A model generated the notes under the pieces. That model did no database searches, was not told the origin of the DNA, and worked only from the letters and a program-made list of their open reading frames with translations. A program made the translations under genes and the position numbers. This document shows positions 20,190 to 23,620 of a stretch of DNA of 64,000 bases, piece after piece. Position 1 is the first letter of the stretch, and the number at the start of each line of letters is the position of its first letter. The DNA comes from Alphaproteobacteria bacterium. Lineage in GTDB: Bacteria > Pseudomonadota > Alphaproteobacteria > Rhodospirillales > Magnetospirillaceae. The stretch lies in NCBI GenBank assembly GCA_021325215.1, contig JAJPHO010000183.1, positions 1-64,000 of the forward strand. Reading direction: 5' to 3'.

Positions 20190-20266
20190 GCGTCCGTAGC
20201 TCAGCAGGATAGAGCACAGGATTCCTAATCCTGGGGCCGTGGGTTCGAATCCCGCCGGGCGCACCA
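20190..20266 (+). tRNA. tRNA-Arg (anticodon CCT)
   Basis: A complete cloverleaf of 77 bases. The acceptor GCGTCCG pairs with CGGGCGC (one G-U). The anticodon arm CAGGA-TTCCTAA-TCCTG gives anticodon CCT, the T-arm carries GGTTCGAATCC, and CCA is encoded. The integrase remnant 23 bases downstream points at its 3' end, as is usual for genomic islands inserted in tRNA genes. Confidence 0.97.
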
Positions 20267-20288
20267 TTCCTTCCAACAATCTCACCAG

Positions 20289-20693
20289 CTAAGACTTGGG
20301 TCCTTCCAACTTCGTTCGTTTTCTGTGCTCGCTCAGACGAACGATTGCTTCCTTCGCGACCGCCCGAGTGCGGGGTAGATAGGTCTCAAAAATCTTCACC
20401 CGATCATAACTGTGACCGGTGATATGCGCGATATCCTTTAGATCGCAGCCCGCCTCTCCCAACCTGACCGCCGCAGTGCGCCGCAGATCCCTAAACTGCA
20501 GTTCTCCGCGCAATTCCGCCTTTTGAGCGATGGCGCGGAAGAGATGGCTGAAATTATGTCGCATATACGGCTTGCCCGTCTTCTCACTGATCACGATTAT
20601 CCGCGCTCTACCCCCGTTGGGAGAGCTGATATAGTGCCCAACGATCCTTGATGGATCGGTCGGGAATTTAGAGTTTTTTGGAAAAAGCAGCAC
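20289..20693 (-). pseudogene. Truncated tyrosine recombinase (integrase) catalytic domain
   Basis: About 134 residues of the C-terminal catalytic domain of a phage-type integrase survive. They include the box II segment FRDLRRTAAVRLGEAG, the HITGHS histidine region and the nucleophile tyrosine in FETYLPR. The N-terminal DNA-binding and core-binding domains and the first catalytic arginine region are missing. The frame only opens from a stop near 20730, with a weak GTG as the first plausible start. It lies against tRNA-Arg, so it is probably the scar of an integrated element. Confidence 0.85.
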
Positions 20694-20705
20694 GATGGAA
20701 CGGAA

Positions 20706-22856
20706 ATGACACTCGATATTCGTGGCGGCCTAAAAAATACTAAAATAAGCTCGAACGAATATGTCGTTATTGAAGAGCTAATTTCTAATTCTATTGACTC
20801 CTACCTGATTCGCCGCCATCAAAATCCATCGATAACTGGACTTAAAATATCCCTATTGATCGAATTGAGTCGGCGCGACCTTGTCGACGACAATCAGTTC
20901 AATCTGTCAATTTCCTGCACTGATAACGGAGCCGGACTTGGGGATGACCAAACCAATGCGTTTCTGACCAAGGACACATCCTACAAGGATGACTTGCCCA
21001 TCGCCGGCATCGGAATGTGCAAAGGAGCGGGACGGATTCAATTCTTCCATCACTTTGATACGATCGAGGTGCGCAGCGCGTATCAAACAGACCAGGGGGT
21101 TTTCGTTCGAACGCTCCCACCAGTCGACGGCCGAAAAAAGATAGAATTCAGGGATTTTATTGTCTCTAAGGACGACACTGCCGATATTGGCGCCACCATA
21201 ACCCTATCCAACCTAAAGGCTCGTGCCCTAGCAGACATTTTCCAGTCCGCTCCCTTGGATCAGGTTTTCTCGGCGGCAACCGTTCGCCGCCATATTCTGG
21301 TTGCCTTCCTACAGAGACTGGTAGGCCTACGCGCCGAGCTGGGTGATTTCGAGATATCCTTTCAGACTACCCGCCCAAAAGACAAAGACGAGAATCTGGA
21401 CAATGTCGCCAAGGAGACCCTTCGGGCAGCAGACCTGCCCAAAGTCTCAGACGAACGGACAGTTCAGGTGGAGGAACAAGATCCGCTTACAGGAGAGCCG
21501 TTGGGGAAACACCAGGAGTTCAAGCTATCTCACTACAAGCTTGACGCAAACTCATATCATCTCCCGCGCAGCAGCATTTCACTATGCGCCAAATCTTCTC
21601 CTGTCAAAGACATCACGACGCTATACCTCCGGACCAAAGCGGAACAGAGCAACCCTGTGGATGGCTTTCACCATATCATCCTGATTGAGAGTGATCTGCT
21701 GGACCGATGCGTAAACGAGCAGCGTGACGGCTTCGACGGCATCCCCAAGGAGATCCCGAGCGATCACATGCTGGAACGCGGAACGATATCTTATGAGGCG
21801 ATCTACGAAAAGATCGACCCGGTCGTCCGGGAATTCATCGCGTCTTCAGGTTGGAGCAAAGAGGAAGTCCTGAAGGACGTATCGGAAAAATTTGGTCTTT
21901 CTGCCCAGATGCTGACCCAGACGGAAACCCGCGTCAGATACGGCGAAGACGCAAGGGCCGTGGCAGAGCGTGTAGTGCGGAAATACCAGAAGCTCATACT
22001 TGCCGATACAGCCAAGATTTTCGATCTCAAGGAAGAGATCTCCCAGGCAGACCCTTATTCCGAGGATTTCCGAAAAAAGATCAACGATCTGTCCTGGAAA
22101 TACACCGCGTCTCTTAAAACGTTCGACATGGCCAACCTATCCCAACTGATTGTTCGACGGGCTGCAATAGTCGAAATACTGGAGCTTGCCTGTAAAAAGA
22201 AATTGGGCGTTCAGACGAATAATGACGGACGACGCCAAGATGAAAGCATCGTCCACAGCATATTCTTTCCGATGAGAAGAGACAGCCACGAAGTGGCCGA
22301 CCATGACATCTGGCTCTTGAGCGAAGAATATCAATATTTCGACTACATCTCATCTGACAAGCCGCTATCCCAGATCAAGTGGTCAGAGGACCAGCATCTC
22401 TTCGATGACGATGTAGATACGGAATTTGCGAAAATCCTAAGCCAGCGAGCTGAGGATCATGGCGCAAAGCGGCCCGACATAGCGATATTCAGCAAGGAAG
22501 GCTCGGCCATTATCATCGAGTTCAAGGCTCCAGGGGTCAGCATGGATGACCACACGAATGACCTGGGCACATACGCGACGCTGCTGGCGGCCAAATCGAA
22601 CGGTCGCCTGAACCGGTTTTATGGTTATCTGATCGGCGACACCATCGACAGAATCAGAATGGCTGGCTCTGGATGGACTCGTTTTCCTATGGGCAAAGGC
22701 TACTACCGCCCCACCCGCCTACAAGATCCAGAAAACGGTCGAGACCTCGGTGCCTTGTATGCCGAAATCCTGTTTTTTGAGGACATCGTTGATCGCGCAC
22801 GAAAGCGGATCGGCGTTTATAAGGACAAGCTTCAAGTCGATCTGACACAGAACTAG
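20706..22856 (+). CDS. GHKL ATPase with C-terminal PD-(D/E)XK-like nuclease domain (candidate defence protein)
   Basis: A 716-residue cytosolic protein. The Hsp90/MutL-type ATPase is at the N-terminus: N-box EELISNSIDS (23-32), G1 DNGAGL (73-78), G2 GIGMCKGAGR (101-110). A long middle region is rich in charged helices. Near residues 588-610 the pattern RPDIAIF then IIIEFKAPG matches the D...ExK core of restriction-like nucleases. The gene is visibly more AT-rich than its surroundings and sits beside an integrase remnant at tRNA-Arg, so it was probably transferred. A single-gene anti-phage or DNA-processing role is inferred. I do not recognise a named system. Confidence 0.7.
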   Translation: MTLDIRGGLKNTKISSNEYVVIEELISNSIDSYLIRRHQNPSITGLKISLLIELSRRDLVDDNQFNLSISCTDNGAGLGDDQTNAFLTKDTSYKDDLPIAGIGMCKGAGRIQFFHHFDTIEVRSAYQTDQGVFVRTLPPVDGRKKIEFRDFIVSKDDTADIGATITLSNLKARALADIFQSAPLDQVFSAATVRRHILVAFLQRLVGLRAELGDFEISFQTTRPKDKDENLDNVAKETLRAADLPKVSDERTVQVEEQDPLTGEPLGKHQEFKLSHYKLDANSYHLPRSSISLCAKSSPVKDITTLYLRTKAEQSNPVDGFHHIILIESDLLDRCVNEQRDGFDGIPKEIPSDHMLERGTISYEAIYEKIDPVVREFIASSGWSKEEVLKDVSEKFGLSAQMLTQTETRVRYGEDARAVAERVVRKYQKLILADTAKIFDLKEEISQADPYSEDFRKKINDLSWKYTASLKTFDMANLSQLIVRRAAIVEILELACKKKLGVQTNNDGRRQDESIVHSIFFPMRRDSHEVADHDIWLLSEEYQYFDYISSDKPLSQIKWSEDQHLFDDDVDTEFAKILSQRAEDHGAKRPDIAIFSKEGSAIIIEFKAPGVSMDDHTNDLGTYATLLAAKSNGRLNRFYGYLIGDTIDRIRMAGSGWTRFPMGKGYYRPTRLQDPENGRDLGALYAEILFFEDIVDRARKRIGVYKDKLQVDLTQN

Positions 22857-22987: not shown

Positions 22988-23620
22988 TCAAACGTCTGGC
23001 GCCGCATTTCCACGCCGCGGCAGGAGCACCAAGTCGGCCGCTTCCTCGGCGTCATTGAGGAGCGTCTTACGGGACGCGCCCATCTGTGCGTGCATCGTCA
23101 GACCGCGGGCAAGGTCGAGGACCTGACGCGCGCGGGCGGTTACCGGAAAGTCAGACGGAATTTCTCCCGCGCTGATCCCGTCGCGGAAACGCCGCTCCAC
23201 CAGCGCCAAGCCGGCAGCCGCGGCGTCCTTCAGGAACTGCTTGACCTCAGGGTCGTCCACGAGGGGCGCCACACACACCATCAGACATCCTGGGGCAGAT
23301 CCTTCCTCGGTCGCAGCCTCCACGGCGTGCCTCAAAAAGCCGGCCAGCGAGTCGCGAAGGGCCGGCGGCGAGAAGAGCGCCTTCGCAGCGCGAGCCCCCT
23401 TTGCCTCTGCGTACGCCCGAAGGACACGCAAGAACAAGGTCCGCTTGTCCCCGAAAATGCCATACAGGCTCGACCGTCCCAGCCCCATCACGGCGACCAG
23501 ATCGTCGATCGTCACACCATCGTACCCCTTCGACCAGAAGACCTGCGTCGCCTTCTTCAGGGCGTCACTCTCGTCGAAGCTGCGCGGTCGTCCCCGCGGC
23601 CTGGCGACATTCTGGAACAT
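22988..23620 (-). CDS. TetR-family transcriptional repressor
   Basis: A 210-residue regulator with an N-terminal TetR helix-turn-helix (about residues 12-58: ALKKATQVFWSKGYDGVTID, then SSLYGIFGDKRTLF) and an all-helical ligand domain with a TetR_C-like segment (GSAPGCLMVCVAP). It is divergent from the SDR gene 128 bases away and most likely represses both genes. Confidence 0.93.
   Translation of the reverse strand: MFQNVARPRGRPRSFDESDALKKATQVFWSKGYDGVTIDDLVAVMGLGRSSLYGIFGDKRTLFLRVLRAYAEAKGARAAKALFSPPALRDSLAGFLRHAVEAATEEGSAPGCLMVCVAPLVDDPEVKQFLKDAAAAGLALVERRFRDGISAGEIPSDFPVTARARQVLDLARGLTMHAQMGASRKTLLNDAEEAADLVLLPRRGNAAPDV

Follow-up and report, generated by a model that had tools for sequence, protein, structure and literature searches.

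What does a lone gene of foreign composition beside a transfer RNA (tRNA) gene do, and for whom? The question is raised by a gene at positions 20706 to 22856 (forward strand) of contig JAJPHO010000183.1 (assembly GCA_021325215.1), of which positions 1 to 64,000 of the forward strand, 64,000 nucleotides in all, were analyzed and are here called the window. The gene is intact, opens with ATG and encodes a protein of 716 amino acids in which a GHKL ATPase is followed by a PD-(D/E)XK-like nuclease. It is probably a horizontally acquired, single-gene nuclease directed against phages or other mobile DNA, of the kind known as paraMORC3 and VcSduA. This reading is carried by the order of the domains, by active-site residues that never vary, by a fold prediction for the ATPase half, and by the mobile and in part defense-rich contexts in which relatives are found; an anti-phage function for this branch of proteins is what we infer.

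Conserved Residues of the Protein

The protein carries an N-box (EELISNSIDSY, with E24 and N28), the motifs DNGAGL (residues 73–78) and GIGMCKGAGR (101–110) and, toward its C-terminus, the nuclease motifs PDIAIF (590–595) and IIIEFK (602–607). The initial annotation had read these as an Hsp90/MutL-type ATPase coupled to a restriction-like nuclease, and both identifications hold up. The motifs are not chance resemblances, since their core residues are invariant across an alignment (A3) of the window protein with 33 others that are 19–59% identical to it (34 rows). A3 does not include L044, L045, the partial L059, or L051 (which, like L048, is a viral contig), nor any locus that came from the genome, plasmid and phage searches. 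In all 34 rows, the invariant residues of the GHKL and middle parts are E24, N28, D73, G75, G77, F86, G107, G109, R110, and R340, and those of the later part are L478, R485, E513, H517, W536, S550, D551, D591, E605, K607, and P609.

In a second alignment of 21 rows that overlaps A3 in part (A2), the same core motif residues are invariant, except that E24 falls in a gap in one row. E513, H517, D591, and E605-x-K607 are invariant in both (34/34 and 21/21), and R340, within VNEQRDGF, is found in 34 of 34 rows of A3 and is nearly invariant in A2. E24, N28, D73, G75, G77, G107, G109, and R110 belong to the GHKL ATP site, and E513, D591, and E605-x-K607 make up the E-D-ExK residue set of a PD-(D/E)XK nuclease.

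Catalogs of protein families recognize little of this. Pfam returned HSDR_N, HSDR_N_2, and HATPase_c for the window protein, all below cut-off, though HATPase_c matches 26 of the 34 A3 members at E ≤ 1. NCBIfam gave a weak HSP90-family match (15.6 bits, where the cut-off is 455), and PHROGs gave one unknown family over residues 560–710 (E 1.3e-7) and another at E 0.21. The hidden Markov model search of a defense collection that the initial annotation had proposed was made against PADLOC-DB 2.0.0, where the window protein has 0 matches at E ≤ 1; its identification as a named PADLOC system was therefore rejected. The 21 A2 members together gave three weak single-member matches there at E ≤ 0.1. 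Among solved structures, a sequence search with the window protein by itself found none, and a profile search found GHKL parts only. The kind of protein is already known, and this branch of it is absent from the catalogs searched (no PADLOC 2.0.0 match; Pfam and NCBIfam below cut-off).

Predicted Structure

An AlphaFold2 model built from the 34 rows of A3 has a mean predicted local distance difference test score (pLDDT) of 82.0 and a predicted template modeling score of 0.58, and supersedes a six-row model of mean pLDDT 64.5. Four parts can be told apart along the chain, all encoded on the forward strand. The GHKL ATPase domain, at about residues 1–178 (positions 20706–21239), holds the N-box residues E24 and N28, D73-N-G75-x-G77 and a lid at about 95–110, and is marked out by invariant residues and fold matches alike. 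It is followed by an S5-like transducer or middle domain at about residues 190–378 (21273–21839), which contains the invariant R340 and is covered by VIA-align ranges that reach residues 376–418 on MutL, MORC3, SMCHD1, and Hsp90. A helical linker, residues 385–496 (21858–22193), is built of long helices at 416–447 and 453–496 with a pLDDT of about 66–77; it may serve as a dimer or DNA clamp. The PD-(D/E)XK-like nuclease domain occupies about residues 508–709 (22227–22832), with E513, H517, D591, E605, and K607, and is the domain of the HSDR_N match below cut-off.

The fold of the ATPase half is predicted with strong support. In a VIA-align search with the model, the best 50 rows (Z 15.8–19.3) comprise Hsp90, MutL, MORC3/4, SMCHD1, and topoisomerase VI-B; the alignments with MutL, MORC3, and Hsp90 begin at model residue 1 or 4 and extend to 378–418. 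These rows concern residues 1–418 alone and have no bearing on the nuclease half. Foldseek matches to the ATPase half reach E values down to 2.2e-13. Separately, when the model is compared with viral folds, its best matches include phage RIIA proteins.

The nuclease half is supported by its invariant E-D-ExK residues together with the predicted order of helices and strands. In the model, a helix at 508–520 carries E513, D591 stands just ahead of a strand at 592–596, and a strand at 600–606 has E605 and K607 on it or immediately beyond it; next come a helix at 613–630 and a strand at 637–644. This is the usual order for a PD-(D/E)XK fold, as far as prediction goes. The pLDDT of the domain is about 80–93, but 57–78 at residues 551–590, where an insertion specific to the clade is found. 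Fold prediction and fold search of the C-terminal residues had been suggested at the outset; in the full-length model, the motif and the predicted topology of a nuclease are present in the C-terminal part.

Comparison with Known Systems

The initial annotation could match the protein to no named system. By description, two named relatives in kind exist. The first is paraMORC3, predicted in 2008 as a GHKL module and an S5 domain with a C-terminal restriction endonuclease (RE)-fold nuclease bearing E-D-ExK, and described in the same account as widespread but sporadic, prevalent in proteobacteria and Bacteroidetes, and standalone in a subset of cases (PMC2292703). The GHKL motifs, the S5 domain after them and the C-terminal E-D-ExK are all found in the window protein. 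Just as paraMORC3 is without the MORC motif GhXhhpXXRhl, so 0 of the 34 A3 members have it at residues 180–420 (with residue classes chosen here), and filing the protein as a MORC was rejected on that ground. The likeness to paraMORC3 is drawn from its published description; a lid longer by six residues and a 41-residue spacing of D551 and D591 are features of the clade described here.

The second is VcSduA of Vibrio cholerae, reported to be a single GHKL-nuclease protein that protects against phages, at all multiplicities tested, and that loses its anti-phage activity on either of the substitutions E27A and K557A (Adams et al. 2025, PMC12137116). Its authors equate its organization with that of paraMORC3 and place it in Shedu type I-D (PMC12137116). 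As in VcSduA, an N-terminal GHKL ATPase and a C-terminal PD-(D/E)XK nuclease are joined in the window protein, to judge by motifs and predicted fold, with a weak fold match for the nuclease. In L031, a distant relative, the N-box glutamate is E27 and the ExK lysine K558, against the E27 and K557 mutated in VcSduA, a hint that VcSduA belongs to the wider family of the window protein.

VcSduA is described with DUF4263, whereas the window protein and its 20 A2 companions have no match to SduA_C, a difference that is again one of description. A search of the window's own genome with PF14082 found no match, and the family is absent among the best 25 of 28 families for A3. A profile-profile comparison with seven SduA_C proteins is suggestive over the nuclease part only (83.7%, E 8e-6, 113 columns). 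Because SduA_C/DUF4263 is undetected and the profile similarity is limited, the protein is not filed as Shedu.

Two further groups bear comparison. A second GHKL-nuclease family (A5: L039, L086–L091), mostly linked to DNA cytosine methyltransferases, is homologous in its GHKL and middle parts and in its nuclease part as well (hhalign 99.5%, E 2.2e-23, 547 columns). A methyltransferase adjoins in five of its six plasmid loci and, as judged by eye, at L039, in contrast to the window, where none stands next to the gene. One A5 locus also has a very-short-patch repair endonuclease, and L039 has an SduA_C match just under cut-off (25.1 against 27 bits). The ATPase half of the window protein shares its GHKL-S5 fold with MORC, SMCHD1, MutL, Hsp90, and topoisomerase VI-B, which carry C-terminal parts of their own where the window protein has a nuclease domain.

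Relatives and Distribution

Close relatives, full length and 42–60% identical, were found in five named genomes, on four plasmids, on three viral contigs (L024, L025, and L041) and in three more genomes (G757, G479, and G663). Two further close copies on viral contigs, L026 and L027, are partial. Distant relatives, about 19–25% identical, occur on plasmids, in 1 of 50,697 phage records and on many viral contigs; the viral-contig search returned none with the window protein as single query and one match with the distant relative L031. The phage record is that of vB_RanS_PJN03, where the relative (L029, 2140–4164) lies beside an integrase and is annotated, probably wrongly, as an N-acetylmuramoyl-L-alanine amidase.

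In a tree of 47 proteins, which leaves out L042 and L043 (same contigs as L024 and L025), a close group of 13 is split off by a branch with 100/100 support; L057 and the phage protein L029 have the same sequence. Within it, the window protein groups with plasmid proteins of Rhizobium etli and Sphingomonas morindae (99/94). Two insertions are fixed in this fully supported subclade. The stretch of the ATP lid with GIGxCKG is 13 residues long in each of the nine A3 rows from the close group, six more than the 7 (in one case 8) of the 25 others, and the segment from D551 to D591 measures 41 residues in the close clade against 12–19 in the others.

The distribution is sporadic. Of 398 genomes of the phylum searched with an alignment profile, 10 hold near-full-length copies, the window's own among them. 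Two of these copies are interrupted: one contains a TAA, and the other is split and contains a TGA. An eleventh genome (G474) has a single open frame that is matched in two separate pieces. Altogether 72 genomes matched, most of the other matches being short and within the ATPase part. None of 60 genomes related to the window's own carries a close copy, and three carry distant ones (26–31% identical in the matched pieces). A class-wide search gave matches in 7 of 384 other genomes, two of which hold decayed N-terminal fragments, 58–61% identical and with stop codons (G418:C1:1490621–1490959 and G389:C1:1188182–1188426). Members of the branch occur on plasmids and in alpha-, beta-, and gammaproteobacteria.

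Composition sets the gene apart from its surroundings, as had been claimed from its AT-richness. Its GC content is 50.8%, and its GC content at third codon positions (GC3) is 0.587, close to the 0.607 of the neighboring integrase remnant, against 0.773–0.879 in five flanking genes.

Neighborhoods of Homologs

Contexts were counted for the 15 full-length close homologs outside the window, whose neighbors were scanned in part; the partial L026 and L027 were left out of the count. Five of the 15 (L001, L021, L022, L122, and L123) have strong defense or restriction neighbors. In Marinomonas (L001) these are a type IIG restriction-modification gene (PADLOC, 964 bits), a RhuM-type PDC-S05 gene, a helicase, and a T5orf172 gene, followed by recC and recB. 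On a Sphingomonas conjugative plasmid (L021) they are GajB (561 bits), preceded by a frame-disrupted OLD/TOPRIM-like gene named by eye, and, after the homolog, an annotated restriction endonuclease that is weak in PADLOC (37 bits). A Sinorhizobium conjugative plasmid (L022) has SIR2 (733 bits), HerA (1019 bits), DarT, and DarG.

The most unusual arrangement seen is hsdS-GHKL-hsdR. At L122 (4163–13301) the order is hsdM, an ORF6N gene, hsdS, the GHKL gene, and hsdR; the ATG of the GHKL gene overlaps the hsdS stop, and hsdR starts 12 bases past the GHKL stop. At L123 (5257–14279), hsdM, in two parts, and hsdR are 88–95% and 86% identical to those of L122, an open reading frame of 429 codons in the place of hsdS (taken for hsdS from its position) overlaps the GHKL start, and a Fic gene stands between the GHKL gene and hsdR. 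In an all-against-all comparison of neighbors across 18 loci, the window included, there is no conserved operon partner. The hsd genes of L122 and L123 are the sole strong recurring set, with a few weak pairs besides, and their hsdM also resembles a gene in L026.

Mobile contexts are frequent. Four of the 15 close homologs are on plasmids (L020–L023), and three have integrase genes in the stretch (L024, and L005 and L025 by matches below the Pfam cut-off). The integrase at L024 is of phage type and is accompanied by a histidine-kinase/response-regulator gene; L025 adds to its weak integrase match a PRTase-CE gene (PADLOC PRTase, 30 bits). In Jannaschia (L005, 6317–12900), a tRNA-Phe gene, the integrase-like gene and the homolog are followed, at a distance of 6.5 kb from the tRNA gene, by a 16-bp copy of its 3′ end, in what appears from its sequence to be a small integrative element. 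Elsewhere, L041 has PIN_12 and umuC-like genes near the homolog, L020 a DUF3883 neighbor with a weak match to defense models (27 bits), and L003 a tRNA-Ser gene 738 bases upstream. Phage tail or baseplate-type genes, identified by eye, adjoin a distant full-length relative (L072, 1284–8031) and a close C-terminal fragment (L027, 729–8558), as if these were prophage cargo. The expectation that homologs should not lie consistently in housekeeping contexts is borne out, though some of them do.

Proposed Mechanism and Alternatives

If the protein works as MutL, MORC, and topoisomerase VI-B do, ATP binding would close a dimeric GHKL-S5 module around DNA. The closed clamp would bring the C-terminal PD-(D/E)XK domains together and so license the cutting of invading DNA, and hydrolysis, with E24 as base and R340 as a possible basic finger of the S5 domain, would reopen it. 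DNA as substrate, gating by the dimer, and the sparing of self-DNA are parts of this scheme that we infer. Because no methyltransferase gene adjoins the gene in the window, the protein is more likely to recognize DNA by its ends, its topology or its replication structures than by methylation. A bolder version, put forward tentatively and with a small chance of being right, is that the clade is a distinct, DNA-topology-sensing restriction factor. Its GHKL clamp would read DNA shape (ends, crossings, supercoiling) instead of methylation, in some bacteria it would serve as a second, methylation-independent arm of type I operons between hsdS and hsdR, and the insertions in the lid and nuclease would be its own gating parts.

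Several observations weigh against a defensive nuclease. Expression is unproven, because the gap between the ATG and the divergently oriented integrase remnant is 13 bases and a sigma-70-type scan upstream of the gene found no site. Restriction endonucleases appear in Foldseek only after the GHKL structures and weakly, as SgrAI (E 0.06) and R.BspD6I (E 0.08), in a search with the full-length model; the likeness to the RE fold of paraMORC3 is one of fitting helix and strand order in the prediction. Of the 50,697 phage records, only one has a relative at E ≤ 1, and some host DNA may be present among the viral contigs. The figure of 5 in 15 for defense neighbors is a raw count with no control set, so that enrichment is unquantified. 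At least four of the 15 (L002, L003, L004, and L121) have housekeeping neighbors, and no defense family was found among the eight neighbor proteins scanned there (seven of housekeeping type, one without a match). Finally, SduA_C (PF14082) is found in 0 of 21 A2 members at E ≤ 0.1.

Of the other explanations, an abortive-infection toxin survives best, although it is unlikely. It has the same architecture; phage infection would free the nuclease, host DNA or RNA would be destroyed, and the infected cell would die instead of ridding itself of the phage. The reported action of WonAB, a pair of an ABC-ATPase and a PD-(D/E)XK protein, by abortive infection (PMC12137116) speaks for it.

Quite improbable is a gene that serves its mobile element and not the host, through superinfection exclusion or through plasmid or prophage maintenance. 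Carriage on plasmids, the nearby integrases, the phage tail genes beside L072 and the L027 fragment, and the Jannaschia locus between its tRNA-Phe with integrase-like gene and its 16-bp repeat all fit such a role, but the copies at L122 and L123 sit within restriction genes. In the window, moreover, the integrase is dead yet the GHKL-nuclease gene is intact, which suggests a benefit to the host.

The least probable is a MutL-like repair or mismatch factor, a role considered for versions outside restriction contexts by Iyer et al. (2008, PMC2292703): the ATPase half does align with MutL (Z 16.2–16.9), copies do stand alone, and umuC/imuB-type genes do lie near L041 and L121, but sporadic occurrence (close copies in 0 of 60 relatives), carriage on plasmids, interrupted copies elsewhere, and a foreign, low-GC composition all speak against it.

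If the preferred reading of an anti-phage or anti-mobile-DNA nuclease is right, the defensive GHKL-nuclease kind, of which VcSduA is the one tested example found, extends to a well-supported branch on which a literature search that covered few subscription journals found no publication. Should the protein be active, it would offer a compact system for studying the control of a nuclease by an ATPase clamp of the MutL/MORC type and the means by which foreign DNA is told from the cell's own. With the hsdS-GHKL-hsdR arrangement, whether there is a functional link to type I restriction can be tested directly.

Genomic Setting of the Gene

The start of the gene lies 440 bases beyond the end of a tRNA-Arg gene (anticodon CCT; positions 20190–20266, forward strand; ARAGORN), the putative integration site. 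The ATG at 20706 is taken as the start because close homologs open with the same MTLDIRG or MTLDVRG. Between tRNA and gene, on the reverse strand at 20289–20693, lies an open reading frame of 134 amino acids that matches Pfam Phage_integrase (E 9.2e-11). It is regarded as the C-terminal remnant of a tyrosine integrase, a pseudogene, because the match covers the end of the profile (94–158 of 172) and the integrases matching it in genomes of the family are mostly open frames of about 350–474 amino acids. The truncated integrase reported at first sight was thus correctly named.

On the other side, the nearest gene encodes a TetR-family regulator (22988–23620, reverse strand; Pfam TetR_N) and lies outside the system. 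The genes on this side had been called native. Ordinary composition (GC3 0.773) agrees with that, but since the best counterparts of the TetR gene in other family genomes are only about 35% identical, its native status rests on composition. An adjoining phosphodiesterase gene is also present in 4 of 54 other family genomes, where the stretches read contain no tRNA or GHKL gene.

A search of the window found neither a direct repeat nor another copy of at least 12 bases of the tRNA region, and no att sites or empty site were found. The 77-bp tRNA-Arg gene has copies of 96–99% identity in 12 of 54 other family genomes. Exact 3′ fragments of it, 46–56 nt long, occur at other places in four family genomes (G029, G022, G014, and G034), and at the 14 tRNA loci of relatives that were read, identity with the window ends at the tRNA end or within about 11 bases of it. 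Because of these displaced fragments and the shared sequence that stops at the tRNA end, integrating elements seem to use this tRNA-Arg. None of the 14 loci matched the integrase remnant of the window. Compared with plasmids, the integrase region gave no match as DNA and four records, 32–37% identical, as protein. In one of the four genomes with fragments (G034:C426:188–3181), an intact tRNA-Arg gene and an exact 46-nt 3′ copy stand 2.9 kb apart and enclose an apparent element at the same tRNA.

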